A stretch of DNA of 64,000 bases from Anthostomella pinea (taxonomy: Eukaryota; Ascomycota; Sordariomycetes; Xylariales; Xylariaceae): contig CAUWAG010000012.1 in the NCBI GenBank assembly GCA_963556695.1, positions 744,001-808,000 on the forward strand, written 5' to 3'. The notes beneath the pieces were generated by a model. The model was not told the DNA's origin, did not search any database, and was given only the letters and a program-made list of their open reading frames with translations. Shown here in pieces: positions 1-64,000 of this stretch. Every line of letters begins with the position of its first letter. Position 1 is the stretch's first letter. The position numbers were made by a program, and so were the translations under genes.

Positions 1-2213
1 TGCTTAGCTGTTTTGTTCATTGTTCCGTGGCAAACTGGGGGATTGTCTGAGTTCTTTTTCCGTGAGAAGTGCATGATCTCGGTTTTGTCGGGATCAAATT
101 CAATAGCATTGTTATGTCCCCATTGGTTGAGCAAATGAAGGTTTTCAGAAGCCTCTGCAGCTGTTTCTTTAAGGTTCTTTCCAATACAGAGTGTTGCTAG
201 ATCATCTGCATATCCAAAGCGTCTTCTTTTCATGCCAAGTCGGGCACAGATTGGCTCTGTATACAGCATGTAGAGGATTGGAGAGACTGGTGAGCCTTGT
301 GGGAGCCCACAAGTGAGAGCTTTTATATCGGTCACAGTACCTTCAAACCGAACTCTTGCGGACCGCTCGGACATGAACGACTGGACCCATCTTATGAGAA
401 AGCCTGGCCAGCCCTGTTCTCTCATGCGAACCACCAGCCGTCCCATTAGGGCAGCATCAAAGGCCCCTTTCACATCTGATGTGACTACCGTTGCAACGAG
501 GCCTTGGTCAAGGGCCTGCTCAATATCGTGTATGAGTGCAGCTACCAGGTCAGTGGCAGAGCGCTTTGGTAGAGCTCCAAAATGTTGTGGGGCTAGAATT
601 CCAAGTTTGACAACAAACCAGGTAATTCTTTTCGCAATGAGTCGTTCTAGGCCCTTGCCAAGACATGACAGTAGCGATATTGGTCTGTAGGCCCTGGGAT
701 TGGAGTAGTCTTTCTTTCCTGGTTTTGGGATCATCACCACCTCAGCTACTTTGAATGGTTTAGGGTGGTGTCCAATCAGTAGGCAGGTCTGGAAAAGGGC
801 TCTGATATGTTCACCAATGACTGGCCAGCAAGCTTTCAGAATCCGTACTGTGAGGGTATCTACTCCCGGGGAGTTGCTCTTGGTTCCTAAAGTGCACCCT
901 TCAGCCTCTTCCAGTCCGACGTGGTATTCAAGGGGGATGTGTGGCTTGGGTTGTATGATCTGAGCGGACCAGGGGTCGATGATATCGTTGTCTGAGGTAC
1001 TTCGTTCAAGCGTGGCTGAGCGTAATGCATTTGCCTTGCTCTCTTGTGACTCGAATATTTGGTCTCCTATGATGATTGGAGGGGAACGCATTCCTGCTGA
1101 TAACTTGTGCCAAGAGACGATTCTGTATAGGTCCTTTGGCTCAGTTGCTGAATTGATTAGAGTCTGCCAGTACTCTCTCCTAGCTTTCCGAACCACGCCG
1201 CGAAATTCCCGTCGGGCTGAATTCCGTCCTTCTTGGCTTGTAGTCTGTTTGGAAAGGGCCCTGTATGTCTGAACAGCTGCTTTGCAGTCATCATTCCACC
1301 AAGCAGTGGGCCTAGATTGACGGGGCCTCTTGCCCACTGTCCTGATACAGCCTTGGATCATGTTGATCAGGCTTTGTGTAAAGGTGTCCACCTGGCCAGG
1401 GGATACACCCAGCCGGGGGAGTTCATGAATCCTGGTTTGGACATTATCTGCCAGCTCCTGTAGTTTATCGTCCGGTACTATCCAATGATTGGCCTTGGGT
1501 ACTCGGTCCAGATCTCCCTGGATTGGAATGACTATTCGTAATGTCTCATGATCTGAGGTGCACTGAAGTGCATCATTGACTGAGGCTTCAGCCATGGGGA
1601 CATCAGAGAACACCAGATCTAGTACATTTCCGTCATCATGTGTCGGGACATCTGGTTCAGAAATCAGATCCAGTCCGTGGTCTGCCATAGTTTGTGCAAG
1701 TATAGTACCACCATGATATCCTGGATTGCTTGAGTCCCAGGATGTGTCGCCAGCATTGAAATCTCCAGCTATAACGCAGCCAAAAGGTGGAGTCCATACT
1801 TCCAGAATGTCATCCACTTCCTGTGGGTTGTCACATGGCCGGTAGACACTGGCAAATGTAATGCCTTGTACCTTGACCCAGGTGATGTCTCGTGTAGCAT
1901 AGGGCCGAAGTTGATCCGCTTGAAGGTATTTTCTCACATAGATGAGAGATCTGGGCCGTGTACTGTCGCTGTCCCAGGAATCCACTGGGGAGTATATATC
2001 GTAATTGGGGTGTGTCTTTACTCCCATTCTCCTGCCTGGTGGTATGCCAACCCAGGGCTCTTGCATCAGAATGATGTCTGCTTGTTCTCCTTTATAGTCA
2101 GCCAGGTTGATGGCTAACTCTGTAGGGCCTGCACTCTTTTGTCCCCCTGCTGTATTCACAGAATGGATGACTAGATGCCCGTGTCGATGTGTTTCGTTTG
2201 ATGTACCTAACAT
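1..2213 (-). CDS. LINE ORF2: endonuclease-reverse transcriptase (Tad1-like), partial
   Basis: Reading the minus strand from the ATG at 2213, I find one open frame to the window edge (at least 737 residues) with no stop. The N-terminal third is an APE-type endonuclease with the motifs QEPW, GDFN and SDH. A linker follows, then reverse transcriptase with the first catalytic Asp in SDVKGAFDA, the GLPQGSP block and the FGYADDLA catalytic box. The start overlaps the ORF1 stop by 7 nt (ATGTTAG), a common LINE arrangement suggesting coupled translation. The C-terminal RNase H expected in Tad1 elements lies beyond position 1; related RNase H fragments occur at 14186 and 34782. No disabling change is visible, so this copy could encode an active enzyme. 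Identification is by motif, and the exact LINE clade is inferred. Confidence 0.93.
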   Translation of the reverse strand, partial: MLGTSNETHRHGHLVIHSVNTAGGQKSAGPTELAINLADYKGEQADIILMQEPWVGIPPGRRMGVKTHPNYDIYSPVDSWDSDSTRPRSLIYVRKYLQADQLRPYATRDITWVKVQGITFASVYRPCDNPQEVDDILEVWTPPFGCVIAGDFNAGDTSWDSSNPGYHGGTILAQTMADHGLDLISEPDVPTHDDGNVLDLVFSDVPMAEASVNDALQCTSDHETLRIVIPIQGDLDRVPKANHWIVPDDKLQELADNVQTRIHELPRLGVSPGQVDTFTQSLINMIQGCIRTVGKRPRQSRPTAWWNDDCKAAVQTYRALSKQTTSQEGRNSARREFRGVVRKARREYWQTLINSATEPKDLYRIVSWHKLSAGMRSPPIIIGDQIFESQESKANALRSATLERSTSDNDIIDPWSAQIIQPKPHIPLEYHVGLEEAEGCTLGTKSNSPGVDTLTVRILKACWPVIGEHIRALFQTCLLIGHHPKPFKVAEVVMIPKPGKKDYSNPRAYRPISLLSCLGKGLERLIAKRITWFVVKLGILAPQHFGALPKRSATDLVAALIHDIEQALDQGLVATVVTSDVKGAFDAALMGRLVVRMREQGWPGFLIRWVQSFMSERSARVRFEGTVTDIKALTCGLPQGSPVSPILYMLYTEPICARLGMKRRRFGYADDLATLCIGKNLKETAAEASENLHLLNQWGHNNAIEFDPDKTEIMHFSRKKNSDNPPVCHGTMNKTAK

Positions 2214-3357
2214 TGACTGACAACAATGGTATCGGCATCTCTGGGATGAGTTGTATCTGTTGTGTCGATTTGCATTGTGGTGTCTTTGTTATTATTGCTA
2301 GGTGTTGACCCAGCTTGGTTTCTGCCTGCTTCGTTGAAGGCCTTGGATCTGGCTCTTTCTCCGGCTAGCCTTATTTCCTGGATTTGCTCCCATGTGTGCT
2401 TATGGATGGTACCTTTCACAACCTTGGGGCGGGCAGGGCATTTGTCGAAGTTGGCAGCATGAGGTCCTTTGCAGTTGACACACTTTGGGATTGGTTTTTC
2501 GCACTCTCCCTGGTGTAGTGTGTTGGCGCAGTGTGCACATACTTGCTTTTCGCATCGGTAATTCCTACCATGGTATCTGAAGCAGCTTGCACACTGGTGA
2601 ACCTTGGGGGTGTGTTGAATATGCCTTGAGGTCATTGAGTGGGCAAAAAGCGTGAATGGTTTCCTTGCTGCACTGGGCAGAGAGATTATCCATGTAGTTT
2701 CTGGATCAGAATCAATCGTGTTCTTTGAGAGTATGCACCTCAGAGGTCTGTCGCCTGTTTGGGCTTCAACTTCATCGGCAACAACAGTGTCAGTAATATC
2801 GATTGTGAACCCTTCTGCACTGATGACCTTTCTTGGGCATCCATTGACCTTGTAATGATGCCAGACTGTGTGGGTCTCAATCTTTTGTGCCTTGAGAATG
2901 TCGGCAATTTCTTCTTGGAAAGCCAGAAGCTTAGCCTGAGTTGGCTTGTCCCTTGGGTGTAAGGTAAAACCAGAAGGACATCGTGTCACTTCTCTAAGCT
3001 CCTGAGGGTGGAGCTTAAGTCTTCTGTTCAGTGTAGACTTGATTCCATAAGGCTCTAGGTGGCTATTATCCATGCGGACAAAGACCCGGAGATCATCCTG
3101 CTTCTTCTTCAGTTGGTTGGCAGTGATGAGGGCGCCAGGCTGTGTTTTCTTCATGGTAATGTTGACTGTCCATGGATGCTGTCGTTGGCCAGAGGAGACA
3201 GCTTGGGCGAAGGTCATGGTGGGCTTCCCTATCCCTATCCCGCCAGGAGTGGTCTTTCTTTTGGGCAGATCTCGGGTTTCCAGCCACTCGTTCAGGCATT
3301 TGGAGAAGAAAGCGCTGAACTCCTTGGCATGAGAGTATAGTTCGGTTCCAGCTAAGC
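2207..3357 (-). CDS. LINE ORF1: gag-like protein with three zinc knuckles
   Basis: The first in-frame ATG is at 3217 and gives 336 residues. Three CCHC-like knuckles lie at about residues 209-260 (starts CASC, CAHC and CVNC), as in nucleic-acid-binding ORF1 proteins of Tad1-type LINEs. Upstream of that ATG the frame stays open and protein-like (containing GLAGTELYSHAKEFSAFF) to about 3357, where the sequence changes to the NACHT gene. The annotated Met is therefore probably internal, and this copy may be 5'-truncated inside ORF1 or start at a lost upstream codon. It overlaps ORF2 by 7 nt. It would bind element RNA in the retrotransposition particle. Confidence 0.9.
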
Positions 3358-35875: not shown

Positions 35876-37430
35876 CTAGTCTATAGAGTAAATTACTTCA
35901 GGGTCTTGACTCAGAATCTCTTCTCTCTTCTTAATGGCTCCCTCCTGTGACCTCAAATCAAGCTGCCTCGCCCGAGTGTCTACCAATCCCAACTGATCCA
36001 GAAATCCTGCCCACCGTTGAGCCGGCAAGGCCTTGGTCAACCCATCCGCTTTCATCTGCGCTGAAGGCGTGTACTCGATGCTGACAGTTCCTCGTTCCAC
36101 TTCTTGTCGAAGCCAATGGTTGTGTATGTCCACATGCCGCAACTTGGTTTTTAAGAGGGCAATTTCAGCGGTCACTAACTTAATCGTCTGTGTATTGTCG
36201 CATTCCACTTTGATCTTCTCGCGTTCGAGTTGAACACCAAGTTCCGTAACCAGCCGGCTGATATACAGAGTCTCTTTGACTGCCTGAGCCAGTGCGAGTA
36301 GTTCCGCTTCTGTAGTCGATGTAGTAACCGTGTCTTGTTTGTTGGCCCTCCAGCCGATCAATCCTCCGAAGAGAGTCATGGCGAATGCCTGAGAGCTCTT
36401 TCTGTCAGAAGTATTGTCGGCAAAGGAAGCATCACTGGCCACCACTAAATCGTCTCCTCCTCCAAACTGGAGAGAGTAGTGTCTTGTTTTGTATAGGTAT
36501 CGGATGACTCGGTCGGCGGCATTCTGATGGATCTGACTTGGGTTCGTAAGGAATTTTGCGAGGCATGATGTTGCGAAGGCTATGTCTGGTCGTGTGGAAA
36601 CGGAGGCAAATAGGATGGAACCAATCTTTCGTTGGTATTTCTGGATCTCGTGAGGGGCGGCGTGATCTTGCCAGGGCAGTAGTTCTTCTGTACCCATTGG
36701 GACCTCAGGGAGTCTGTCGGTCAGGTTGATTAGCTTGGTTACTTTCTCAATGTAGGAGGTCTGGGATAGCCAAATCTTTCGCTGGGGCCGGTCCCGAATG
36801 ATTTCCATTCCAAGGAACCATTGAACGTGCTCGCCTCCAGTGATCTCGTATCTTCGTTGAAGCTGCTGAACCACGTCTTGGACATCTTCTTGTGCGTGTT
36901 TTTTATATGCGACGATCACGTCGTCCACGTAGAAGAATATCATGATTCCTTTTCTTGTATAACAGCACGGCTCATGTGGAACTGGGTTGAATCCCAAGCT
37001 GGCCAGAGTCTTTGAGAACTCCTTTTGCCATAGCAATGGAGAAACCTTTAGCCCATAGAGTGCCTTATTCAACTAAAGAATTGTACCTTTCTTGCAATAG
37101 CCGTGTGGCATTTGCATAAAGATCTTCTCATTGATAGGGGCGTGTATAAAGGCGTTGACAACGCCGTACTGGATCATCTCGAGGTCAAACTTGGCCGCCA
37201 GGGCTATCAAGGTTCTGAACGATCTTCCAACAAGAGTAGCTGCATACGTTTGCTCTGAATGCAGCCCCTTCTGTTGATCTCCTCTGACCACGAGACGTGC
37301 CTTGCACTTGATGAACCTCCCATACTTATCAAACTTATAGACATACACCCACATGCAGTCCAAGATTTGATGCCCTCGTATAGATGGGTCTTTCTTTCGG
37401 ATCTTCCAGGTTAGGTTGGGAGACAGCTAC
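35876..37430 (-). pseudogene. Copia pol fragment (reverse transcriptase-RNase H)
   Basis: Read from about 37430: GHQILDCMWVYVYKFDKYGR, KARLVVRGDQQ, an in-frame TAG at about 37073 (a Gln codon expected before LNKALYGLK), then the RT active site FFYVDDVIVAYK, FLGMEII, and Copia RNase H (SDASFADN, TTEAELLALAQA, LRHVDIHNHWLR). The frame ends at 35876. Integrase and gag are missing upstream and no LTR was identified. The LINE tail at 35845 abuts its 3' flank, so the Copia may have been the LINE target. Confidence 0.9.
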
Positions 37431-39957: not shown

Positions 39958-40534
39958 TTGTTTGTTTTGTTTGTTTTGTTTGTTTGTTTTGTATTTAACG
40001 TGGGGGGTAGCTCCTCAGTAGTGCAAACCACGCCTCCCAGAGCCATTGCATCGCAAGGTTGTAGAGGTGTCAAATTAGATACATTCAGATCCGCGCACGA
40101 GCCTATCCTCGCTGTAGCGGTACCAATCTGGAGTGTTCAGATGGTTTTAGTCAATACCCAAGCACGATTCCGTCAGAAAAACCTCCTATCTAGTGACAAA
40201 GCGACCCAGTGAACCTCAGTTCTCTGGTGTACATATCGTTCCAGTAGCCGTTCGATATATGTCGCATTGGTGGGTGGAGTAGGTGTTTGTTATCTGCTGG
40301 CGAGGGAAACCACAAGGGGGAAAACCTCGCAGGAGTGGGTATTGTGGAGACAAGCTGCTTGGCTATCGGGCTCTGCGATAAAATGGGGCCTCTCCACTGT
40401 CGTGTGCTGGTTATCGACTCGCACAAGCCGGGTCAGAAAGGGGGCCATAGCAGGATTCGAACCCACTTGTTCTCGTCGCCCACCGCACAAACGAGAACAC
40501 AACCAGGCGCATTTGACCATTGCGCCATACGGCC
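39958..40534 (-). mobile_element. tRNA-derived SINE, copy 2
   Basis: 577 bp on the minus strand flanked by a perfect 15-bp target-site duplication AGGAGAACAACAACA (39943-39957 and 40535-40549). The 5' end is a tRNA-like head (40443-40534) with acceptor halves GGCCGTA and TATGGCC, D-arm GCGC/GCGC and B box GGTTCGAATCC. The body is shared with 57474-58036. The last 130 bp (GGCTCGTGCGCGG to ACGTTAAATAC plus AAACA tail) match the LINE 3' end at 35700-35845. Confidence 0.92.
40443..40534 (-). ncRNA. tRNA-like promoter head of SINE copy 2
   Basis: Contains A-box-like TGGCGCAATGG and B box GGTTCGAATCC, so RNA polymerase III transcription is plausible. The region where the anticodon arm should be folds instead as a 9-bp stem TGTTCTCGT/ACGAGAACA with a 14-nt loop, so it is not a functional tRNA. 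Confidence 0.75.
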
Positions 40535-46244: not shown

Positions 46245-46276
46245 ACAACACCACCTCCCATTGAATTGTGGAAAGA

Positions 46277-46310
46277 GGGGGGTATGGGGGGGCCCGCCCC
46301 GTGACGCGTG
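46277..46310 (-). repeat. GC cap of array unit M1
   Basis: GGGGGTATGGGGGG followed by GCCCGCCCCGTGACGCGTGA, the reverse complement of the plus-strand caps. It is preceded by CCCATTGAATTGTGG, the conserved outer flank. Confidence 0.85.
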
Positions 46311-46825
46311 AACGAAGTGAACCAATTCAAAGAATGTGCGAGATACTTAATGACAATAGAACTATGTAAACTAATAGAAGTAAACTGTGAGTGGAATGAA
46401 CTACACGGAGTGTGCTAGCGGAGCGGTCGACCGAAGGGAGATACACGGAGTGTAGAGGACTGGAAGGACTAAGGGAGCGACAGCGACATGGAACCAACAA
46501 GGGACCAAAGGGACCACCAATTGTACTAGACTAGACTAGACTTTACCTGTGCACTACCGAGTCACGTAACAAAACATTAAACCCAATAAGTGACGAGGTA
46601 GACAATAGAACCCATAACCAAGTGATCAACAACTGTAGACAGGGCGACCAGAGGGAGACACACTGACCAGAGGGAAGTATAGAAGAACGGAGTGAGGCAA
46701 GGGAGTGGAACGACTGTAGATGCAACGGAGTGAAATCAATGGACTGGAAGGAAATCAATTGGAGTGGGACGGAGATTAGACAACTGAACGCAAGTAAGGG
46801 CATCACCAACCGTGATTTAGAACTA

Positions 46826-46879
46826 GTCCAGCATAAACCCGAGATGTGCGAGGGACCTATAATTTACTTTATGCTGGAC
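46826..46879 (-). repeat. Array inverted repeat, copy M1
   Basis: Arms GTCCAGCATAAA and TTTATGCTGGAC are perfectly complementary over 12 bp. Compared with the plus-strand copies the outer pair is changed on both sides, keeping the pairing. Confidence 0.9.
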
Positions 46880-47355
46880 TTTGGACCAAAAGCCGTGTGC
46901 AACACCCGCGTACGGTCTTAAGGACCATTTAACTACTGAAACGCAGTGCAAGTCAGTTAGTAAGACAGTGTTGATAAAAATTGGAATGTTTGCCAGCACT
47001 GTTTTTGGACAAGTAAGGCCCGTGCGCGGGACTATCCAATACGAACCGAGGTCGCTTGCAGCCGGACGAGAAGACCCTTTACATAAGATTGGGGGGGACA
47101 GGCTGTCAGCCCGAACTGGACAGTGGAATGATAAGCAGAGGTGCGCCCACCCTCACAGAACCTGGATTGTTCTCTTCTGTTACCTCTTTTCTATTGTGTA
47201 GAAAAACAGACCTTTTCATGAGACTGGTTGATTGAGTAGGTGAGTACGCGCAAACGATCCGTTGGTTGTGTGGTAGACCGTGGCGGTGTGGACATTGTTG
47301 TCACTCTGATTTGATACTCTGTGGAACAGGACTGGTGTACGGTGGAATCGTGGTG

Positions 47356-47790
47356 ATGGACAGTGTCTCTATGTGTTCGTCATGGGCGGCGCGCTTGGCT
47401 TCACAGGCAGCCTTGGTCGTCTGTCTCTTCCCGGGGGTACGATGGGAACCAGAGGTGGGCGAGACGGTTATAGATCTGGAATCGATCTTGGTTTTGGCGC
47501 CGGAGCACGACATCCCTAATCCTTTGTTTTTTGGTAGGTATAAACGGGCCATCCTTGAGCATATGCGCGGGAAGAGGACACTGTTATTATCAATACATCC
47601 GGCTGTTCGGTCGTTCTTGGAAGAGCAAGGCATACGCTACGTGCTGGTCTATCCGGAGGCATCGCTCGAGGTGTGTTGGGTGGCCCATATGACAGCGACC
47701 GGTGCTAGTCTGGACAAGGTGGAGCTGGTGACCGAGGCCTGGGGACGCTTGCTTGCGAGCTGTGATGAGGCTCGTCCCACGAGAGGCTAG
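47356..47790 (+). CDS. P-loop kinase-like protein, Walker A lost
   Basis: An ATG at 47356 gives about 144 residues (an upstream in-frame start at 47266 exists). The order of strands matches the 54866 ORF: LVVCLFPGVRWEPE where Walker A should be, VIDLES, then YKRAILEHM, RTLLLSIHPAVRSFLEEQGI, RYVLVYPEASLEVCW and a helical end. The Lys and Ser/Thr of GKS are missing, so ATP binding is unlikely. The related pattern of a P-loop, DSDSS-like, VSSH..VR.AL and VYP occurs in small nucleotide kinase-like proteins of phages and large DNA viruses (from general knowledge). It lies antisense to its unit. Confidence 0.6.
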   Translation: MDSVSMCSSWAARLASQAALVVCLFPGVRWEPEVGETVIDLESILVLAPEHDIPNPLFFGRYKRAILEHMRGKRTLLLSIHPAVRSFLEEQGIRYVLVYPEASLEVCWVAHMTATGASLDKVELVTEAWGRLLASCDEARPTRG

Positions 47791-48206
47791 CAGTTATGGG
47801 CTGGTGTCAGGTTGGGGGAGCCCGGCTTGGGTGTTGTCGGACAACAGCAGGTACGGACTCTGTCAGGCACGGGAGTATGAACTATACTGAGGTTATGCTT
47901 ACCCTTTTCCTCTTATGGGAGGGATAAGAGACTAAGTAATAGATAGACAGTGTGGAAGACAGAGGATACAAATGCCACATAGGAATGTGGTGGTGAGACC
48001 AGTTGTAGTATGTTGAACTTGTAGTGCTCTCTTTGATAGGCAGAGTGGGAACTTGTGGTGATAAACCTGTTGGATGATGCGTGGCTGATGCACGGCTGAT
48101 GCACGGCTGATGCATTGAGACTAGACTTCAACTTGGTGATACTAGACACTGACCCTCGTAGATACGATTGACCAACTGAACCCCTTAGGATTGAATTGTG
48201 AACCAA

Positions 48207-48240
48207 GGGGGGTACGGGGGGCCCGCCCCGTGACGCGTGA
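48207..48240 (-). repeat. GC cap of array unit M2
   Basis: GGGGGGTACGGGGGGCCCGC plus CCCGTGACGCGTGA, flanked by GATTGAATTGTGAACC. It lies 1930 bp from the M1 cap. Confidence 0.85.
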
Positions 48241-48249
48241 ACGAAGTGA

Positions 48250-49095
48250 ACCAGTTCAAAACTCGGGCGAGATACTGTTTGACAATAGAACGATGTAGAT
48301 AGATAATTAAATAAATAGAAACAAATAAGTGAGTGGAACGAACCACACGGAGTGTGTAGCGGAGCGGTCGACCGGTAGGGAGATAGGGAACGGTAGTGAC
48401 TTAAGGAGCGACAGCGACATACACGAACAGAGTGAGGAGTAGAAGAGTGCAACGACGATAGAACATAAAGGGAACAGGAGTGACCGACTACTAGATAGAC
48501 TTAATCAAACTGTGATTCATCGCATTACTCAAAATTAAACTAAACCAGCTAAGTAACGAGATAACAAACTAAACCTAACTAAACGTGATCAAACAATTAT
48601 AGACGGGGCGACCGGAGGGAGACCAACACTGAGCAGAGCGAAGGAAGGGAGGGACAACCGTACCAGACGAAGTGGAACGTAGTCATTGACCGGAAGGAGA
48701 TCAAACGCAACGGAGTGAAGTCAGATGAATAGCGCAGCGAACCAGTTCAAAACATGTGCGACTAGACGATTAATTAATTGAACGATGTAGATAGATACAT
48801 AGACAATAGAAACAAACAATCAGTGAACGGAGTGAACCACACGGAGTGTGCTAGCAGAGCGGTCGAACGAAGTGAGTAGAGGAACGGCAGTGACTAGACG
48901 ACCGGTAGGGAGGCATGGGGAGGGGACCGACCACAGGAACGAAGTGACGGTAGACGAACAGAGTGAGGAGTAGAGGAGTGTAACGACGATGGAATCAAAG
49001 GGAGCACAGCGACCGTACAACTCAATAGATAATAATTAAACTGTAACCAACGAGTCACTCTTAACCAAACAAATCAAAAACAAAGTGACGAGGTA
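48250..49095 (-). repeat. Two successive CGGAGTGAAC-rich zones
   Basis: 48250-48700 and 48720-49095 each contain GAACCAGTTCAAAAC, ACACGGAGTGTG, AGCGGTCGAC/GAGCGGTCGAAC and ACGGTAGTGACT blocks. The second lacks a cap, so a cap and spacer have been deleted between them or the zone was duplicated. Confidence 0.7.
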
Positions 49096-49221
49096 AACAA
49101 TGAACCCAACAAGACATGATCAACAATATCCCCGTTGCACCTGCTTCTGCCTCCGCCGTGCCTCAACCCGAGCACTGCTTCGTCCCCGGACAACACCATC
49201 CCATGCCGCCAACAAGGCCTC

Positions 49222-49656
49222 CTAAGAACCAACAGACGGTCCAGCGACCTCCACTTCACACGCCCATCGCCTAATAAAGTCACCAGACGACTCCATAATA
49301 TTTGGCCACCGAATATCCACTACTGTGCCCTTTGCGCCCGCTCTTTTCCACTTCGCCGGGCTCCATAACGTCACCACCCTCATCCTTCGCGGTGACACCA
49401 CAAGGTAGTCCAATACCCGATTACCATCACGAACGCACTCCTTTGCCAGCACCTCCCGCGCAGCAGGGAAAAACAATGAGGTCGCCCTCAAATACTCCTT
49501 CAGCGTCTCTTCTTCTCCGAACCGGTAGGATAACCAGAATACGTTCCGGTACACATTCTTCAGCGAATCTAGTTCAGTCGCTATCGTTCCAAATAAAGCG
49601 AACAAAGGTAGACAAAAAGAACAGGACACTAGCCCCAAGGAAGCGGGGCAACCCAC
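49222..49656 (-). CDS. Array ORF of unknown family
   Basis: 144 residues: VFWLSYRFGEEETLKEYLRA, TSLFFPAAREVLAKECVRDG, VLDYLVVSPRRMRVVTLW, GAKGTVVDIRW. It occupies the spacer just before the P1 cassette, the same place and strand as the P-loop ORFs in other units, but shows no P-loop pattern. The first 40 residues include hydrophobic CFCLPLFALF. It is at the centre where unit orientation switches. Confidence 0.45.
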   Translation of the reverse strand: MGCPASLGLVSCSFCLPLFALFGTIATELDSLKNVYRNVFWLSYRFGEEETLKEYLRATSLFFPAAREVLAKECVRDGNRVLDYLVVSPRRMRVVTLWSPAKWKRAGAKGTVVDIRWPNIMESSGDFIRRWACEVEVAGPSVGS

Positions 49657-49952
49657 TCATTTTATGTTCCCCAGAACAGCCGATGTCCATGTACAGCCCC
49701 CCTCCGCGCTGTCTCCCGTCCTGACCAATCAGTCCATTCGGTGCCGACACTCTGCGTCACCCCCCCACATCACTCCGTACCGTCGTTCTATTGGATGGCC
49801 CGGTGCACGGGCCTTATGTGTCCAAATACAGTGCTGGCAAGCTTTTCCAAAGTTGTTCCCACTGTCACTCTACCTCACTTTCCTTACAGTCCAGTAGTTA
49901 TAGTAAGTCACCCTGTCCGTACGCGGGTGCTATCGCACGGCTTTTGGTCATG

Positions 49953-50010
49953 ATTCCAGCATAAAGTAAATTATAGGTCCCTCCGTGCAACTCCGGGTTT
50001 ATGCTGGAAT
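49953..50010 (+). repeat. Array inverted repeat, copy P1
   Basis: ATTCCAGCATAAA pairs with TTTATGCTGGAAT (13 bp). The centre contains GTAAATTATAGG and CTCC...GGG. Confidence 0.92.
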
Positions 50011-50590
50011 GCTCTTCGAGTTCACTTCGTGATGGCCTCACTTGGTTCGGTTGATTAATCTCCATTCCATTTCAATTAGATCGACTCCGTCTCCCCTACT
50101 TCACTCCGTTCCGTCTACAGTCGTTCCACTCCCTCTAACGGTCCTTCCAGTCCCTTGCCTCACTCCGTTCCTCTACTTCCCTCCGGTCAGTGTTGGTCTC
50201 CCTCCGGTCGCCCTGTCTACAGTTGTTGTTGATCACATGGTTGATTTCAGTTGGTTACTCGTCACTTTTGTTATTTGTTTTAGTTTGGTTTTGAGTGACT
50301 CGGTAGTGCACAGTGGTAGTTTGATGAAGTCTATGTACGGTCGCTACGCTCCCTTGTTGTTTCATCTCACGATGTTGGTTCCACGTCGCTGGCGCTCCCC
50401 TGGTCACTCTGTTCCCTCATCGTCACTCCGTTCCCCTACTCACTTCGTTCGACCGCTCCGCTCCACTCCTCCGTCGTAGTTCACTCCGTTCACAGTTTGG
50501 TTCAATTGTCTATGTATCTAATTATCTAGTTTTTTATAGTTCTATTGTCTAACAGTATCTCGCCCGAGTTTTGAACTGGTTCGCTGCGCT

Positions 50591-50625
50591 CACGCGTCAC
50601 GGGGCGGGCCCCCCGTACCCCCCTT
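50591..50625 (+). repeat. GC cap of array unit P1
   Basis: CACGCGTCACGGGGCGGGCC followed by CCCCGTACCCCCC. It is preceded by TTTGAACTGGTTCGCTGCGC, which the minus units carry inverted as AACCAGTTCAAA. Confidence 0.88.
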
Positions 50626-50989
50626 CTTCCACAATATAATGGGAGTGGTGTTGTTGGTACTCTAGTTACGAGGGGAAGAGGTCTATTAGGTCACTGAGTC
50701 TACTCACGCCCCGGCGATCCCAACGTTCTCCCATTCCTTCCTGTTGTCATGGTCATCCTACTCAGTCTTTTATGTACCCTAGTAAAGTCTCATAAGGTCT
50801 AGTCTATTCATGTCTAGTACCCTCTGTATCAGGCAGCCAAGCTCGTCTTCGCTATCTATCTATCTTATTATGTCACCTTGTAACAAAAGAAACCTGTCTA
50901 AGAGCAAGACTAAAAGACACACCACCTTGCTATGAAAGAAGATAGCACACATCTTATCATGTCCCCACCACTTCTATTCCTTCCCTGTC

Positions 50990-51505
50990 TCAGCTGTAAC
51001 CGTGTTCCGTTGCCTCATCGGCCGACAAGACAAAGTGTTGACAACCTTGTTGTGCCCGACAACCTCGGATCCAGTCCTCCCAGTTCTCCATCACCGTCGA
51101 CACCACACGGCCCTCATAGCCCTGCGCCTCCAAACGCAGCTTCCACACCTCCTTGTAGCCCTCCGCGGGGTAGAGCAAGAGGAACGGGATCCCTTCTGAC
51201 ACTAGAAAGTCCCGCACCTCCTGATGCGAAGGCAAGACAAGAATGTCCCACTCCTCCTTGAGCGACTCGACAATCGCCCGGCCATACCGCTCCATCCAGT
51301 TCTCCTGCTCCGCTCCATCGGCTGCCCACCGAAACAAGGGCGAATCCAGCTCCACCGCCTTGAAGTCTGTCTGGGTAAACAACGCCTCCGACTTCACCCC
51401 GGGAAAGGCAGAGACCACCAGTCCGCTACGGGCCGCATCCTTCCACGCGTCCACCACATCCACCCACTTCTCCAAAGGCAACAACTCACCACCCATGGTG
51501 TACAA
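50990..51505 (-). CDS. P-loop kinase-like protein, Walker A degenerate
   Basis: 171 residues from ATG at 51505. Key elements are LVVSAFPGVKSEAL (a Walker A with the Gly-Lys pair disrupted), VELDSPLFRWAADG, ENWMERYGRAIVESL, ILVLPSHQEVRDFLVSEGI, FLLLYPAEGYKEVWKLR, and a Trp-containing C-terminal helix ENWEDWIRGC. These elements occur in the same order in the 54866 and 47356 ORFs at low identity, so the three are old paralogs rather than recent duplicates, unlike the nearly identical flanking cassettes. The clean frame suggests constraint. Confidence 0.65.
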   Translation of the reverse strand: MYTMGGELLPLEKWVDVVDAWKDAARSGLVVSAFPGVKSEALFTQTDFKAVELDSPLFRWAADGAEQENWMERYGRAIVESLKEEWDILVLPSHQEVRDFLVSEGIPFLLLYPAEGYKEVWKLRLEAQGYEGRVVSTVMENWEDWIRGCRAQQGCQHFVLSADEATEHGYS

Positions 51506-51893
51506 GTATTACACAATCTCTCTTACAACATACCGTCGTTCGTTCAACGAAAAGAGGACGACAAGTCAAAGATGAACAACACTGTTCAAAAAGAAGGATG
51601 AGAGGAAGAGAACCCATTCTGTCTCCCAAATGCGCGCATCACTGCTAGTTGTATTCCATTGCAAGTTCGTGCCGACACCCTGTCTGCCCCCTTTGGGTAG
51701 TGATCCCTGCGGCCGCGAGCGACCTACGTTCTATTGGAGGGCCCTGAGCACGGGCCTTGTTGGACTAAAAACAGTGCATGCAAACATTCCATTTTTTGTT
51801 CGCACATGTCCACTAACGAACTTGCACTGCGTTCCAGTGGGTAAGTGGTAGAATCCACCGTTCGCGAGTATGTTCATACGGCTTTTGGTCAAG

Positions 51894-51951
51894 ATTCCAG
51901 CATAAAGTAAATTATAGGGCCTGGATGTCAACACCAGGTTTATGCTGGAAT
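51894..51951 (+). repeat. Array inverted repeat, copy P2
   Basis: ATTCCAGCATAAA/TTTATGCTGGAAT (13 bp) with an inner CCTGG/CCAGG pair. Confidence 0.92.
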
Positions 51952-52512
51952 ACTCTGCGAGTTCACTTCGTGATGGCCTCACTATGTTCGTGTCTAACTA
52001 TCTCCGTTCCACTCCAATGTATCTCATTCCATTCAATTGCCTTCGCTCCGCTACGTCTACAGTCACTCCGTTCCCTCTACAGTCGTTCCACTCCCTTACG
52101 TCACTCCGTTCCTTTCCTTCCCTCCGGTCAGTGTTGGTCTCCCTCCGGTCGCCCTGTCTACAGTTGTTGTTGATCACATGGTTGATTTCAGTCTATTACC
52201 TCGTCACTTAGTTGTTTTAGTTTGGTTAAGAGTGACTCGTTGTATCACAGTTGTCTAAGTCTATCTAGTTGGCGGTCACTACGTTCCCTATTGATTCTAT
52301 TGTCACTGTCGTTCCTTAACTCACCCGGTTCGTGTAGGTCGCTGTCGCTCCTGTCTACTCCGTAGTATCGCTCCGCTCGGTTCCTCCGTCACACTTCACT
52401 CCGTTCAATTAGTCGTTCACTCCGTTCACTGTTTAGTTCTATTGTCTATTCTACTATTTAGTTCTATTGTCTAAGCATATCTCTAACGTTCTTTGAACTG
52501 GTTCGCTGCGCT

Positions 52513-52547
52513 CACGCGTCACGGGGCGGGCCCCCCGTACCCCCCTC
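52513..52547 (+). repeat. GC cap of array unit P2
   Basis: Same cap sequence as P1 followed by CATTCCACAATATAATGGGA. The spacer after it (52580-53490) has no convincing P-loop ORF; it holds GCATCAGCCGCGCATCAGTC, also found inverted at 48080-48110. Confidence 0.88.
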
Positions 52548-53855
52548 ATTCCACAATATAATGGGAGTGGTGTTGTTGGGTAAGAGTATCTTCGAGGGTC
52601 ACTATCTAGTATCACTACGTTTAAGTCTACAAAGAAGGGCATCACAGGTTGCCAGTGCCTCCATTACTACAAGAGGTCTACGATTGTATCTGGTTTCATT
52701 CCAATACAAGGGGCACAGCGAGAGTCTACGTCCATCACCCCGTCTTATCAGTCACGTTCCACTGATTCCATCCTCCATTCCACCAAGTCCCCCGTGGTCC
52801 ATCTCACTGGGTTCTCATCACCCGGTTCGTAGGGGAAGGCCCATCATCACACCGTTCATCCCCAGGGAAAGCACGCTACCACGAGTCGACTAGCGGCCCG
52901 CAAAGTCTCCAACCTCATTGGAACCTGGGTCAAACCTTACTTACACCGTATTGAAACCCTGATGCACTGCTCAGAGTGTGTCTCTCCCGTTCCACGTGCC
53001 ACTAGGTGACAGTATCACCAGTCCTGGCGGTATAGAAGAGCCCCGCACCGACCAGACAGCGCAAAGAAAGGGTCCTTCCACCCATCCCTATGCTCACCAA
53101 GAGACGCCCCCCATCACAGTTGGGTATTGTGGCCTGACCAGTCCATCGCCCCGTCTCCTTCTCCATCCACGAGAAAGAACAACAACAATGTTCATCCAGG
53201 TGCGGTCCTACCTTTCGTTTGTCCGGTAGAGGAGCAGTCTACTCCCAGCGCATCAGCCGCGCATCAGTCACGCATCATCCATCCGTGCTTGTCCCCCCAA
53301 AGTGTCCGTAGTGAGGGCATCCTGTTCCTCAGTCAATCGATCATTCCATTCGTATGTTCACTCAACAAAACCCATTGTTTATGTTCTTTGTCAAACAAAG
53401 ATCTATACCATGATTAGAAAGACGACCTAGTCGATAGCAACCCAGTATCATCTAAAGAGTTCGGGCGTGCAACCCAGGTTGACTCAATAGTTCGGGCCAG
53501 CCCAGTACTACAGCACAAGCTTGTCTCTTGGCTCAAGAGAGAGGAGTCAGGAAGAACAATCCTTATTCAGTTCGAGCGGGCGCCCCCTCGCTTATCTACC
53601 CCGTTCGTTCAGTCGGTGCCGACAGGGTGTCTGCCCCCTTTCCGAGAGTCGGAGGGTTGTTGGTCCGGCCACAAGTGACCTCCCCTTCCATTGGATAGTC
53701 CCGCGCACGGGCCTTTTGTTGGACTAAATACAGTGTAGTCAAGCTTTTCCAAAGTTGTTCCCACTGTCACTCTACCTGCCCTTCACTATGTTCCGGGTGG
53801 TACTAGTAAGTCATCTAGTCCGTACGCGGGTGCTATCGCACGGCTTTTGGTCAAG

Positions 53856-53912
53856 ATTCCAGCATAAAGTAAATTATAGGGCCTGGATGTCAACACCAGG
53901 TTTATGCTGGAA
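53856..53912 (+). repeat. Array inverted repeat, copy P3
   Basis: TTCCAGCATAAA/TTTATGCTGGAA (12 bp) with an inner CCTGG/CCAGG pair. Confidence 0.92.
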
Positions 53913-54464
53913 ATGACTGCGTCTCGTTGTCACGATGGCCTCACTTGCGTTCAGTCTAATCATTGCACCCCGTTTCATTTGATCAACTCCGTTTCTCTTC
54001 CTCCGTTCCACTACGGTTGTCAGTCACTCCGTGCCTTCTACCAGTCGTTCCACTCCCTTTGACTACGCTCCGCTTCGTCTCATCGTCGCTCCGCTCCTCA
54101 TGTCTACAGTTGTTTGATCACGTCTGTTGAGTTCATTTGGTTACTCGTCACTTGGTTGGTTTAGTTTGGTTAAGAGTGACTCGTGGGTTCACAGTTTGAT
54201 TAGTTCTATCTGACGGTCGCTACGCTCCCTCTTGTTCCATGTCACTGTGTTCCTTACTCACCCTGTTCGTGTAGGTCGCTGTCGCTCCCCTAGTCACTGC
54301 CGTTCCTTAACTCCCTATCGGTCGACCGTTCCACTCTCCCACTCCGTGGTTGTTCCTCCGTCACAGTTCCTTCCAGTCACTTGTTGTTTCTATTTACTAT
54401 CTAGTTTACATAGTTCTATTGTCTAAGCATATCTCGCACATGTTTTGAACTGGTTCGCTGCGCT

Positions 54465-54499
54465 CACGCGTCACGGGGCGGGCCCCCCGTACCCCCCTT
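54465..54499 (+). repeat. GC cap of array unit P3
   Basis: Cap as in P1 and P2 followed by TTGGTTCACAATTCAATC, the form seen (inverted) beside the M2 cap. Confidence 0.88.
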
Positions 54500-54865
54500 G
54501 GTTCACAATTCAATCGGGGGTGGTGTTGTCGGTCTAGTTAGTTACGAGGGGGCAGTCTACTAAAAGAAGAGCAGTAAAGGGAAGGCATCACGGGGTCCAA
54601 GTCTATGATCACCAGATTCATCGGGAAGGGAGTGTACAAGAACAATGCATATCAAAGACCACATCTCCCAGTATCAAATCCTGTATAAAACGTTCCTATC
54701 CATTGAATCCATCACATTCTAATCCGTTCAAAACAATCCCTATTCCCAAGCCGTCCGTCCATGGCCTACACACTGTAGCACCGCATCACCGAAGCTCCCA
54801 AGCCCAACACACCCTCCGCCATCCGTCGCCTCACCGACTCACCTGTCCAGCGCCACCTACCCTTT

Positions 54866-55426
54866 TCAGGCTCCTGGTTTTGTCACCCGTCCCCTCCCAC
54901 GATTGGCCTGCAAAACGACACCAGAGATGACATCAGCTAGGTACTGCCCCGTCTGTAGAGACACATGATCGCAGCCAGTCTGCCCAGCACAATCCGACAG
55001 AAACAAATCCCAATTGTCTCGGAATAAAGGGATCATCCCGACCGTGCCCCGTGACTCCATTCGCCCAAGCCACTCCTCCTTCAGTGCAGGCTGTGGAACA
55101 ACCATGATAAACCAGAGCCCGAGGCTGTTGAGCCGTTTGCGTACATCGGCATGCGTGGATACCAGAATAATCGTCTTCTCGGTAACATGAGCCACAATTG
55201 CTTTCGTGTAGTCCTCCACAGAGTTGGGATTTCGGCTTCCGTCCGCCAAGAACGAATACGCCGACGAGTCAAGATCCAGCACCGAGTACCCCTCTACAGC
55301 AGAACTCCCTCCAAGCCACGACTTGCCTACACAAGCAAACCCGGATATAATAATGGCTCGTTGCCGTAGAACGGCCATTGACTGGGTATCTCCCATATCG
55401 TACTTCACAGTTTGTTCACAACACAC
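54866..55426 (-). CDS. P-loop kinase-like protein with intact Walker A
   Basis: 186 residues (or 176 from the second Met, MGDTQSMAVL). Walker A is GFACVGKS at about residues 29-36, followed by YSVLDLDSSAYSFL, NSVEDYTKAIVAHV, IILVSTHADVRKRLNSLGL, FIMV VPQPALKEEWLGRM and a final helix RDNWDLFLSDC. The layout fits a small P-loop nucleotide kinase-like fold; substrate unknown. It lies antisense in the spacer between cap P3 and cassette P4. It is the only array ORF that could bind nucleotide, and might be the ancestral or functional copy. Confidence 0.7.
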   Translation of the reverse strand: MCCEQTVKYDMGDTQSMAVLRQRAIIISGFACVGKSWLGGSSAVEGYSVLDLDSSAYSFLADGSRNPNSVEDYTKAIVAHVTEKTIILVSTHADVRKRLNSLGLWFIMVVPQPALKEEWLGRMESRGTVGMIPLFRDNWDLFLSDCAGQTGCDHVSLQTGQYLADVISGVVLQANRGRGRVTKPGA

Positions 55427-55801
55427 GTCCGTTGGTATACTGATCGTGTTGTCTCTGTTGTTGTCTCCGTCGAGCGGTGCATCGATGCCCTTTCCAAAAA
55501 GAAAGTAGACGAGAAGACGAGGAACTTCAGAAGTGGGCGTTCCACTCCTTTAGTATTCCATTCACGGTGTCCACCCCGTTTGTGTTGGGGCCGACAGGTG
55601 TCTGCCCGGATGAGGTCATCTGTTCCCGGTGGTCACGATGGACTGAGGGTCCCGTGCACGGGCCTTATGTGTCCAAATACAGTGCTGGCAAACATTCCAT
55701 TTTTTGTTCGCACATGTCCACTAACGAACTTGCACTGCGTTCCAGTGGGTAAGTGGTAGAATCCACCGTTCGCGAGTATGTTCATACGGCTTTTGGTCAT
55801 G

Positions 55802-55859
55802 ATTCCAGCATAAAGTAAATTATAAGGGCCCAGTGTCAACACCGGGTTTATGCTGGAAT
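55802..55859 (+). repeat. Array inverted repeat, copy P4
   Basis: ATTCCAGCATAAA/TTTATGCTGGAAT (13 bp); the inner bases are CCC...GGG instead of CCTGG...CCAGG. Confidence 0.92.
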
Positions 55860-56059
55860 GGACTGCGTCTCGTGGTCACGATGGCCTCACTTGCGTTCAG
55901 TTGTCTAATCATTGCACCCCGTTTCATTTGATTGACTCCGTCTCTCTTACTTCACTCCGTTCCGTCTAACGGTCCTTCCAGCCCTTTGATCGGTCGTCCC
56001 TCCCTCATCGTCACTCCGTTCCTCATGCCTCAAGCGACACTATAGAGCGTGGACGCTAA

Positions 56060-57473: not shown

Positions 57474-57565
57474 GGCCGTATGGCGCAATGGTCAAATGCG
57501 CCTGGTTGTGTTCTCGTTTGTGCGGTGGGCGACGAGAACAAGTGGGTTCGAATCCTGTTATGGCC
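57474..57565 (+). ncRNA. tRNA-like promoter head of SINE copy 1
   Basis: Seven-pair acceptor GGCCGTA/TATGGCC, D-arm GCGC/GCGC and B box at 57545-57555. The anticodon arm is replaced by a 9-bp stem with a 14-nt loop. Confidence 0.78.
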
Positions 57566-58036
57566 CCCTTCTGACCCGGCTTGTGCGAGTCGACAACCAG
57601 CACACGATAATGGAGAGGCCTCTTATTGCAGAGCCCGATAGCCAAACAGCTTGTCTCCATAACACCCACTCCTGCGAGGTTTTTCCCCTTGTGGTTTCCC
57701 TCGCCAGCAGATAACAAACACCTACTTCACCCACCAATGCGACATATATCGAACGGCTACTGGAACGATGTGTGCACCAGAGGACTGAGGTTCACTGGGT
57801 CGCTTAGTCACTGGACAGGAGGTTTTTCTGACGGAATCGTGTTTGGGTATTGACTAAAACCATCTGGTCACTCCAGGTTGGTACCGCTACAGCGAGGATA
57901 GGCTCGTGCGCGGATCTGAATGTATCTAGACTGACACCTCTACAACCTTGCAATGCAATGGCCCTGGGAGGCGTGGTTTGCCCTATGGAGGAACTGCACT
58001 CACGATAAATGCAATCAAATCAATCATCATCAAATC
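57474..58036 (+). mobile_element. tRNA-derived SINE, copy 1
   Basis: 563 bp flanked by a perfect 16-bp duplication TTCTTACGTGACGCCA (57458-57473, 58037-58052). It begins exactly at the tRNA-like acceptor GGCCGTA and ends in an ATCAATCATCATCAAATC tail. Body and 3' end are shared with copy 2 (39958-40534); the last 130 bp are the LINE 3' end. No protein is encoded. Confidence 0.93.
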
Positions 58037-59735: not shown

Positions 59736-60530
59736 TTAGTTATCGTATCTAGCCGGCCGGCGACTCTGTCGGCCCGAACGGGTCTCCCTAGCGGCCACAA
59801 TCTCCTCCTCTTCTTCTGAATCAGAGCTTTCATCCTTTTTCTCCTCATCAGTGGTATCTTCAATAACCACAGGCTGCGCGGCCCTGCGGCCTCTCTGAGG
59901 CTGTTCCTCACTAGCTGCCAGAATATCCGGGATATTTTTGAAGCGTTTATTCGGGTTGGGGATCTTTCTGCGCTTTTTAGGGCGCATGCGGTCTAGTTCG
60001 GCCTCCAGGCTCTCGATCTTCTGGTCCTTTAGCACCATCTCTCCTGATTGCTTCTCAAAGGCTTTCGCAACCTTGCGTAACTTCAGCCGAGTGGTTGGGG
60101 ACTTGTTTTTGCCCATATCCATGATTTGGCGGCTATTTTTAGGCGTCTGGAAGTCTTCAGGTTCTGAACTTTCGACCTGTTCAGGCTCAGGGGTTGCGGC
60201 CTTATCCTGTTGGATTTCTGGATGTGATAAAGCCTTTCTGCGGTTAATAGGCCAATTTCCAGTAGTTGTAAAGCCAACCTGACAATTTTTGACCGTCAAG
60301 CCGTCGTTCCTTGCCTTGGAGTAGTATCTGATGAAGTTGATCTTGTCCACAGGGGCAGCATCAGTTAGAGTAGCTAACTGAGCGATATGCTTGCGGTAAG
60401 CAGCTTTCACGGCGTTAAAGGGGCCGTTATCAAGTGGTTGAAGCCCGTGGGAGGTATGTGCTGGAAGAAAACAAAGCTGAACGTTATTCAAGAAGCACGT
60501 AGTTATGAATTCATCCTACCGCTAAATGGT
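59736..60530 (-). pseudogene. Fot1/pogo-like transposase, C-terminal part
   Basis: The exon begins after an acceptor (CTAACCATTTAGCGGTAG) with DEFITTCFLNNVQLCFLPAH and TSHGLQPLDNGPFNAVKAAY, the end of the DDE_1 catalytic domain, then a coiled coil (VLKDQKIESLEAELDRM) and a basic/acidic tail (RPKKRRKIPNPNKRFK, DSSDSEEEEEI). Everything upstream, including DNA-binding and most of the DDE core, is missing. The break at about 60535 lies at the intron and adjoins the kinase-like gene. Confidence 0.85.
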
Positions 60531-63131: not shown

Positions 63132-64000
63132 ATGCACCACAGCATCCTGAAGCCAGCCACGATGCCTCCGCCCACGTATACAGAGGATGATGTGGTGGAT
63201 GCCTACCTAGACGTCACAGATAATGGCATGTCCGTGAGAAAATCCAGCCAAAAATACGGCGTCCCGGCCAGCACGCTGTCAGCACGCATAAGGGGGAGAG
63301 GGACTAAAACGGAGGCTCACACCACCGAGCAGAGAATTTCTCCCGAGCAAGAAAGCAAGGTAGCAGCCTGGATATTGCGCCAGGAGACTTTAGGGCTTGC
63401 CCCCTCTCACTCAGTCGTCAGGGAAATTATGGTAGAACTCCTAAAAAGAAAGGGGGATTTCGCACCACTTGGGAACCACTATATGGACAGCTTTAAACGA
63501 CGCAACCCTACCATTCAGACTAAAATCGGCAAGCGAATGGAATCCGCTCGGTTTAAGGGGTTTACCCCTAAGTCTGTGAACTGGTTCTTCAACATCTTGG
63601 AGGACTACGGCTGGGTGAAGCCAGAAAATACGTACAATGTCGATAAGGGCGGCATCATGTCGGGTTTTGGTAACTCTTTCGAGCCCCCTATCCTCACAGT
63701 CAACTAACTACCCTTATAGGCATCGATTCCCTAGTTCTGGGAAGTTCTGAGACGAGGAAAGCTTTCCTAAAGAGCCCCCAGGGCCGCTCGTGGACATCTT
63801 TCATCGAGACCATTTCAGCTACCGGTAGAGTACTCAAACCAGGCTTGATTTTCAAGGGAAAAGATCTTCAAGCGCAGTGGTTCCTCGAGGAATTCCAGAA
63901 GATAGCCGACTGGTACTATATAACGTCGGAAAACGGCTGGACCAGTAACGATATCGCCTGCCAGTGGCTTGAGCACGTTTTCATACCACAAGTAGATGAA
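63132..64000 (+). CDS. Fot1/pogo-like transposase, N-terminal part (continues beyond window)
   Basis: Exon 1 (63132-63658) and exon 2 (63710 onward) join across GTAACT...CTAAC...TATAG to give SGFG-IDSLVLGSS. A helix-turn-helix of the pipsqueak type lies near the N-terminus (YTEDDVVDAYLDVTDNGMSV, GVPASTLSARIRG), then a CENP-B/Tc5 HTH (ISPEQESKVAAWILRQE, SFKRRNPTIQTKIG) and the start of the DDE_1 domain with first Asp in NVDKGG. The frame stays open to the window edge (WLEHVFIPQVDE). An inner ATG at 63162 (MPPPTY) is an equally likely start. It appears intact as far as seen. Confidence 0.88.

Follow-up and report, generated by a model that had tools for sequence, protein, structure and literature searches.

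Tandem arrays of equal-sized units in the Anthostomella pinea genome: probable integrated concatemers of a multipartite small DNA replicon

Background

To our knowledge, few DNA viruses of fungi have been described. A 64,000-nucleotide stretch of the xylarialean ascomycete Anthostomella pinea (contig CAUWAG010000012.1, positions 744,001 to 808,000; hereafter the window) contains an array of repeated units, and it is asked here what kind of element left it behind. A first-pass annotation, made from the letters alone, had proposed an integrated linear plasmid or large-DNA-virus segment, or a new cargo-carrying repeat.

Results

Layout of the array in the window

The array comprises five caps (46278, 48208, 50601, 52523 and 54475) and five cassettes (46858, 49954, 51895, 53857 and 55803) at a spacing of about 1.95 kb, arranged in two opposed runs. 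Neighbours of like orientation are 1930, 1922 and 1952 bp apart from cap to cap, and 1941, 1962 and 1946 bp from cassette to cassette. The initial description of five caps and five cassettes, spaced at 1.92-1.96 kb in two orientations, is borne out by these positions and spacings. The runs point towards each other and meet near 49,126, where homology ends from either side. The features are as follows.

46278..46300, + strand: cap 1 (left run)
46301..46825, + strand: mini-hairpin zone, 66% purine on the + strand
46826..46879, + strand: cassette hairpin, outer stem 11 bp
47266..47790, + strand: ORF P3, PHROG 4182 paralogue, P-loop not intact, 144 aa from the first ATG
48208..48229, + strand: cap 2 (left run)
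48230..49126, + strand: longer mini-hairpin zone, reaching the inversion junction
49126..49127, no strand: junction between the head-opposed runs
49222..49656, - strand: ORF without family, 144 aa from GTG, 53 aa from the first ATG
49954..50009, - strand: cassette
50010..50600, - strand: mini-hairpin zone
50601..50622, - strand: cap 3
50990..51505, - strand: ORF P2, PHROG 4182 family, P-loop lost
51895..51950, - strand: cassette
51951..52522, - strand: mini-hairpin zone
52523..52544, - strand: cap 4
52580..53500, no strand: unique region of unit B, without a gene-strand open frame of 90 aa
53857..53912, - strand: cassette
53913..54474, - strand: mini-hairpin zone
54475..54496, - strand: cap 5
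54866..55426, - strand: ORF P1, PHROG 4182 family, P-loop present, nucleotide-kinase-like fold
55803..55858, - strand: cassette
55859..56024, - strand: truncated mini-hairpin zone, the right end of the array

Inside the longer zone (48230..49126), the stretch 48733-48895 resembles 48242-48401.

The array ORFs sit on the strand reading GAACGGAGTG; their earlier label "antisense" is right relative to the + strand only. A gene-strand ORF of at least 120 aa (start ATG, GTG or TTG) is present in four of the five units, and to these the claim of an ORF in every unit has to be restricted: the 52.5-53.6-kb unit (unit B) lacks any open frame of 90 aa on the gene strand, and its opposite strand holds only stop-to-stop frames, 135 and 143 aa long, and no 120-aa ORF. 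The common parts within the array are about 73-92% alike, so that the near-identity formerly ascribed to the flanking modules is confined to the cap and cassette cores.

Occurrence in the genome and unit length

A whole-genome scan of A. pinea with a 25-base pattern and at most three mismatches found 27 caps, distributed over five loci and four contigs; the same pattern read backwards, used as control, gave 0 matches. Cap 1 (46278) has an extra base and hence lies outside the 27 counted. Copies elsewhere in the genome had been predicted. The C14 locus has one cap only; LINE RT-like frames seen by eye near it are part of a separate repeat. Weak one-unit matches on C9 (540 kb), C4 (2477 kb) and C3 (3336 kb), 45 bases each, have no cap inside and were dropped. 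Misassembly is unlikely to lie behind the arrays, given an identical architecture at several loci and an assembly from nanopore Q20 reads at about 80x, although their N50 is 8.3 kb (PMC10763133).

Each unit contains one gene (or none) and a common region of about 0.9 kb, composed of cap, mini-hairpin zone, cassette and an upstream GC hairpin. An early likening of this hairpin, by eye, to group II intron domain V was dropped. The genes are mostly unrelated between units. Unit length is 1942.6±27.9 bp (15 intervals between detected caps only; one cassette interval of 2202 bp left out). Over six intervals on C16 the longest ORF of the gene strand varies between none and 951 nt, and the remaining sequence compensates. 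Near-constant length despite very different gene lengths suggests packaging.

Shared bodies and mosaic common regions

The bodies of the P2 unit and of unit B are 96-100% identical between two arrays in most 100-bp windows, whereas the common region adjoining them is mostly 50-80% identical between the same arrays. The P2 protein is 100% identical in amino acids to its copy on C16, and the unit B unique region is about 99% identical to its C16 copy. The P1 and 49222 genes have a DNA identity of only 88% and 80% to their copies in other arrays; the 49222-49656 ORF is 71.5% identical to a stop-bearing copy on C16. Among 195 unit-blocks, 40 have a best partner of at least 90% identity where the median is at most 75%, and at least two such high-identity partners occur in 10 of the 15 common regions. 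For these counts, and for those of the hairpins below, the common region on C16 near 1,256,530 was located through homology rather than through the cap motif. The common regions are thus recombination mosaics, with blocks shuffled between units. The earlier view of a homogenised frame with varying cargo is half right: it missed the mosaic blocks, and two bodies are about 99% alike while their frame differs.

Mini-hairpins and cassette

The zones between cap and cassette are rich in C(GNA)G motifs, with 241 copies in 24 zones (17.8/kb versus 3.2/kb in the control, a 5.5-fold enrichment), although the zones have common ancestry and the counts are therefore not independent. A further, covarying Watson-Crick pair encloses 181 of the 241 motifs (A-T 114, G-C 36, C-G 26, T-A 5) compared with 68 of 284 in the control, and GA...GA flanks were found 98 times versus once. 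Transition variants are also paired, C(ANA)G in 50 of 114 and T(GNA)A in 75 of 134 cases. GA-flanked C(GNNA)G loops have a pyrimidine at the third base in 27 of 37 cases among the matches listed, unlike RNA GNRA loops. A large long-range fold of the zones was rejected as weaker than shuffles: all 52 z-scores are positive (13 of the 24 zones folded), so only local hairpins can be intended. Of 26 cassettes, 22 form an outer stem 8-11 bp long, built from two different sequences.

C(GNA)G and C(GNNA)G hairpins are unusually stable in DNA. On this ground the mini-hairpins may function in the single-stranded state of the gene-sense strand, as a packaging structure, spacer or recognition elements.

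Genes carried by the units

P1, P2 and P3 are three paralogues of the phage-type kinase family PHROG 4182 (profile matches E=1.5e-37, 6e-25 and 7.9e-12, respectively), with alignments spanning roughly positions 8-156 of the 243 in the profile. P1 is 34-40% identical to phage records of this family (20 listed of 223), its fold is similar, and it keeps the P-loop that P2 and P3 have lost. Matches to P1 in the genome (E<=0.01) occur at five places, all within arrays; Durotheca rogersii has a P1 homologue (58%). One unit's protein contains a Rad52_Rad22 domain (PF04098, E=2.1e-36, 125.6 bits versus a curated cut-off of 20.3). C3 has a second Rad52-like locus, presumably a gene of the host itself, to which this protein is 45% identical.

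An arginine-rich orphan ORF of 317 aa has 14 R/K within its first 41 residues; the sole match in a protein search was its own record, and its single-sequence structure model (pLDDT 32) is unusable. Fragments of the 317-aa and of a 242-aa gene occur solitary elsewhere in the genome. The aligned pair of a 237-aa frame and its C9 relative has no homologues at E<=1. Two gene pairs compared across arrays have dN/dS values of 0.43 and 0.38.

Searches for known elements

The 23 array ORFs compared with Pfam (E<=1) contain no HUH, helicase, transposase, Helitron, RT, integrase or RdRp family. An LTR, LINE or DNA transposon was accordingly rejected, as was satellite DNA or an rDNA spacer, the units holding different genes and the whole window giving no Rfam match at gathering thresholds; the first-pass annotation, which saw no likeness to any such element in the array, is upheld by both scans. 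A permissive Rfam scan of one unit gave two matches, E=2 and 4.9. The Rep profiles Gemini_AL1, Viral_Rep and Gemini_AL1_M (PF00799, PF02407, PF08283) found nothing in the genome, control genomes being equally silent. The typical CRESS nonanucleotides tried occur in the genome sporadically and not once per unit; the origin may be of a non-canonical kind. Three pattern-based scans of IMG/VR found no relative: the cap gave no match, and patterns from P1 and the 317-aa ORF gave 12 and one, none confirmed. An exact search of IMG/VR with the cassette core gave three matches, possibly by chance. A search of phage and plasmid DNA found no match.

Discussion

The array is best read, with a probability of roughly 60%, as different components of a multipartite small DNA replicon, joined head to tail into a concatemer that was integrated and has partly decayed; the replicon was most likely a circular ssDNA virus of fungi. 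Of the origins suggested at the outset, the best fit is an integrated element of extrachromosomal or viral nature, or else a repeat that carries cargo; a linear plasmid or large-DNA-virus segment is not supported, since the unit is a small, equal-sized, one-gene module, an anatomy closest to segments of multipartite ssDNA viruses. The units follow that plan (equal-sized components, one gene each, a common region), unit B being without a convincing gene. Formerly, each component would have replicated on its own, as a circle or rolling-circle product, the constant size of the components reflecting packaging. Recombination within the common region could have fused circles in phase, which would yield heteromeric arrays with chimeric common regions, and the driver of this fusion may have been a component that encodes a Rad52-type annealing protein. 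The concatemers would then have entered chromosomes, where they now decay. The near-identity of unit B in two arrays, without a convincing ORF, could mean intragenomic copying rather than two integrations.

A non-viral multipartite plasmid, i.e. single-gene minicircles with a common core, as in dinoflagellate plastids, and no capsid, integrated as heteromeric concatemers, would have the same anatomy; no Rep was found, the capsid is unproven, and Rad52 and kinase-like genes are plausible cargo for a plasmid. It is nevertheless the less probable origin by a good measure, for the near-constant unit length despite the spread in gene length suggests packaging, the arginine-rich ORF matches a known mycoviral capsid in size, and TGA serves as stop codon in 4 of 11 ORFs, so that the fungal mitochondrial code does not fit. 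Improbable, too, is an origin from the host itself, as a tandem gene family or an array of cassettes with fast-evolving spacers, shaped by gene conversion and unequal crossing-over. The paralogy of P1-P3 agrees with it, and gene conversion is also compatible with the mosaic of the spacers and with blocks, unit B among them, that are nearly identical between arrays; but most units carry unrelated genes, the P1 family was found only in arrays, the mini-hairpins are strand-specific, and near-identical bodies beside a differing common region are unexpected from spacer-driven crossing-over alone.

Less credible still is a non-autonomous transposable repeat family (Helitron-like or other) that captured genes and was tandemly amplified. 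Gene capture (Rad52, and an F-box-like trace in the array ORFs at E=0.0025, under the cut-off) and dispersed loci, one with a single cap, speak for it, and the lack of a transposase, Helitron or RT family in the 23 ORFs, in a search that covered protein families, speaks against it. A multi-segmented RNA virus that had common non-coding sequences and was integrated as cDNA would explain structured non-coding regions and one ORF per segment; it is very improbable given tandem, in-phase concatemers, a Rad52-domain gene, loop types that suit DNA rather than RNA and no RdRp family among the ORFs scanned.

To return to the replicon, its nearest counterpart is Botrytis cinerea ssDNA virus 1 (BcssDV1), whose four segments, each about 1.7 kb long, carry a single ORF apiece and have common regions (PMC10731770). 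Shared with it are the fungal host, equal-sized one-ORF segments, common regions and, on its side, two orphan proteins (PMC10731770). The 317-aa ORF is a candidate capsid protein, judging from its basic N-terminus and a size near the 327 aa of the BcssDV1 capsid protein (PMC10731770). BcssDV1 differs in bearing a Rep on DNA-A, and its common regions, which include an origin stem-loop, measure 260 and 38 nt (PMC10731770). In A. pinea no Rep was found and the common region is about 0.9 kb with mini-hairpins; the units carry more gene types (Rad52, kinase-like) and are known here as chromosomal arrays. The likeness is one of plan only, and a placement within Genomoviridae or another CRESS family is not claimed, as no Rep or canonical origin was found and the capsid is a candidate. 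Fusarium graminearum gemytripvirus 1 is likewise a multipartite DNA mycovirus with common regions, but has three segments and a Rep; the largest multipartite fungal DNA virus described in the same source has four segments (PMC10731770).

Among more distant systems, components of Nanoviridae (e.g. faba bean necrotic yellows virus) are about 1 kb and packaged individually. Nanoviridae differ in their plant hosts, Rep component and conserved stem-loop. Bracoviruses (Polydnaviridae) form proviral clusters with many virus segments in host chromosomes, but have large dsDNA segments, wasp hosts and junction motifs of their own. Dinoflagellate plastid minicircles combine a single gene per circle with a common core, but carry organelle genes and are not fungal chromosomal arrays. 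The PHROG 4182 kinase-like proteins (e.g. of Pseudomonas phage PaBG) are phage proteins, whereas the A. pinea members belong to a fungal element. In the titles and abstract openings of the literature surveyed, neither such arrays nor mini-hairpin tracts in ssDNA viruses are described.

More tentatively, at somewhat under even odds, the arrays may represent a hitherto unknown ascomycete multipartite DNA lineage with about ten single-gene component types and no Rep or an unrecognised initiator, which captures genes (Rad52, phage-type kinases), bears a strand-specific DNA mini-hairpin tract of about 0.55 kb as structural signature, and leaves chromosomal heteromeric concatemers fused at recombining common regions. 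Relatives could be tested for from sequence alone by means of the mini-hairpin tract, which is also a concrete candidate for selection acting on the secondary structure of DNA and not of RNA. If this reading is true, an element of about ten gene types, preserved in chromosomes together with its component junctions, would reveal how multipartite genomes recombine and acquire new components, and such genomes would be able to take up cellular and phage-type genes.

Array structure and distribution

Self-comparison of the window resolves two opposed runs of units at 46.2-56.0 kb. The two orientations proposed in the first-pass annotation for about 46-56 kb are thus borne out, and its five caps (GC modules) and five cassettes (inverted-repeat modules, recognised by their core) each recur five times where it had placed them. 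The order on the gene strand, i.e. the strand carrying the array ORFs, is gene, spacer, cap, purine-rich zone, cassette, a further GC hairpin and the next gene. The purine-rich zone (~0.55 kb; 66-67% purines in the four window zones measured) is packed with GAACGGAGTGA-like motifs. Caps are spaced by 1942.6±27.9 bp (range 1892-1999; 15 intervals between detected caps) and cassettes by 1947±25 bp (16 intervals, leaving out one of 2202 bp). Among six intervals on contig C16, the longest gene-strand ORF measures up to 951 nt or is absent, with the remainder of the unit compensating; such constancy of length would be the behaviour of packaged or otherwise size-limited components.

With at most three mismatches the cap pattern is present 27 times in the whole assembly, and the pattern read backwards, as a control, has 0 matches. 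The assembly is described as based on nanopore reads at ~80x (PMC10763133). The A. pinea protein Uu.00g010910 is identical to an ORF of the C16 cluster.

Caps in the A. pinea assembly
Window: 4 (a fifth contains an extra base and so lies outside the 27)
C9, 921-929 kb: 5
C16, 1243-1272 kb: 14
C2, 5594-5597 kb: 3
C14, 1184 kb: 1

Hairpin-forming elements

As DNA, loops of the C(GNA)G and C(GNNA)G types have exceptional stability. On the gene strand of the 24 zones that run from cap to cassette (13,553 nt in all), C(GNA)G is present in 241 copies, or 17.8/kb; the control, both strands of a 44-kb part of the window, has 3.2/kb. Because the zones share descent, these counts are not independent events; dinucleotide-block shuffles yield 74 sites on average and 99 at most. 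A further complementary pair, with all four pair types represented, encloses 181/241 zone copies against 68/284 in the control, and GA...GA brackets occur 98 times against once. The gene strand has few copies of the complementary motif, which makes this a strand-specific feature. C(GNNA)G reaches merely 1.6-fold the control density, with equally frequent pairing (62/79); the third base is a pyrimidine in 27/37 GA-flanked loops, a subset of the zone copies, which argues against RNA GNRA loops. Five of eight other cores compared are little paired (<=25%), while some pairing is found in C(ANA)G (50/114), T(GNA)A (75/134) and C(GNG)G (17/31). A larger fold of the zones was rejected: for 13/24 zones, each strand of which was folded under RNA as well as DNA parameters, 52/52 z-scores are positive, i.e. 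less stable than shuffles. An extra partial zone copy (48733-48895, like 48242-48401) lies beside the inversion junction, hence the longest zone there.

The cassette possesses an outer stem of 8-11 bp in 22/26 copies (exact core, four fetched regions). At the stem, two clearly different sequences are found around one and the same core; the inner hairpin is variable too.

Genes of the arrays

Three window ORFs, the paralogues P1 (54866-55426), P2 and P3, match the phage family PHROG 4182 (E=1.5e-37, 6e-25 and 7.9e-12). At E<=0.01, relatives are present in 223 phage records, none of which reaches 60% identity. Predicted from a four-sequence alignment, with a mean pLDDT of 77, the structure of P1 is similar to Fap7/adenylate-kinase-type nucleotide kinases (best PDB match: E=2.7e-4, TM ~0.58) and, in structure comparison, also to phage proteins. 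Among four aligned proteins the P-loop is kept only by P1 and its Durotheca relative. All five P1 matches in the genome lie within arrays.

Arrays outside the window encode a Rad52-domain protein (PF04098, 125.6 bits), an arginine-rich orphan protein of 317 aa, and a disrupted gene whose F-box-like trace (E=0.0025) is under the cut-off. The Rad52-domain protein shares 45% identity with another Rad52-like locus on C3, presumably the host's own gene. Further open frames of these arrays, to which a Pfam scan assigned no family, are:

237 aa (212 aa from the first ATG)
135 aa (132 aa)
242 aa (242 aa)
268 aa (261 aa)
208 aa (206 aa)

Two gene pairs present in both cassette classes have dN/dS of 0.43 and 0.38, and two with one decayed partner 0.78 and 0.59; a single synonymous change separates P2 from its C16 copy. 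Lone fragments of the 317-aa protein (C4:3123907-3124206 and C5:3739081-3739275; main pieces 50-58% identical, surroundings similar) and of the 242-aa protein (C9, 60% identical) show neither cap nor cassette within the 10 kb around each, and are read as older, separate insertions.

Exchange between units

Across ~1 kb, almost every 100-bp window of the P2 and unit B (52.5-53.6 kb) bodies is 96-100% identical between the window and C16, with 92-94% at the P2 end next to the cap; identity drops to mostly 50-80% at the common region on both sides. Two other genes common to both arrays form older pairs (88% and 80% DNA identity). When 15 common regions were aligned and divided into 13 blocks each, 40/195 unit-blocks had a partner of >=90% where the median partner is <=75%, and 10/15 common regions have at least two different such partners. 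Both patterns therefore indicate modular exchange of unit bodies and common-region pieces. Unit B is ~99% alike in the two arrays and neither copy has a convincing ORF, so some exchange may be intragenomic.

Circles with a shared common region could fuse in phase by homologous recombination, leaving chimeric common regions, which would account for heteromeric head-to-tail arrays of constant period; one component with a gene for a Rad52-type annealing protein would favour such fusion. Integration, inversion and decay would follow. Stops in two gene copies, and a LINE-like repeat that separates two pieces of array on C14, fit this later stage.

Neighbouring repeats

A 553-bp element with a tRNA-His-like head flanks the array in inverted orientation (57474-58026 and 39977-40534). 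It has 40 near-full-length genome matches of 95-100% identity (40 of 828 candidates scored) and so resembles a SINE-type repeat that is young and derived from a tRNA. On C9, C2 and C14, LINE-like sequences related to each other (pieces 92-100% identical) are found next to or in between pieces of arrays, and the window has one at a distance of 43 kb from its array; RT-like frames were seen by eye in the C14 copy. Chance, shared heterochromatin or a role in insertion may each explain this proximity. Pfam matches indicate that the window contains remnants of several transposon kinds.

1-3351: LINE-like sequence, window
C9:916771-920739: LINE-like sequence
C2:5591034-5593001: LINE-like sequence
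C14:1184986-1190018: LINE-like sequence
35876-37072: RVT_2 match, window
59736-60491: DDE_1 match, window
63132-63707: HTH_psq/Tc5 match, window

Comparison with BcssDV1

As described in PMC10731770, Botrytis cinerea ssDNA virus 1 (BcssDV1) has two common regions and four segments of ~1.7 kb, each with a single ORF: Rep, a capsid protein of 327 aa or one of two orphans. The A. pinea units share this plan, but the copies seen lie in chromosomal arrays. Rep profile searches of the A. pinea genome found no match and were silent in the control genomes as well, and no canonical origin was recognised, the typical nonanucleotides tried turning up sporadically rather than in every unit. Membership of Genomoviridae or another CRESS family is not claimed; the 317-aa protein is a candidate capsid. 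A virus is the favoured, if less firmly held, source of the arrays, and we put at roughly 80% the broader reading that they are a multipartite small replicon, viral or not, integrated as concatemers.
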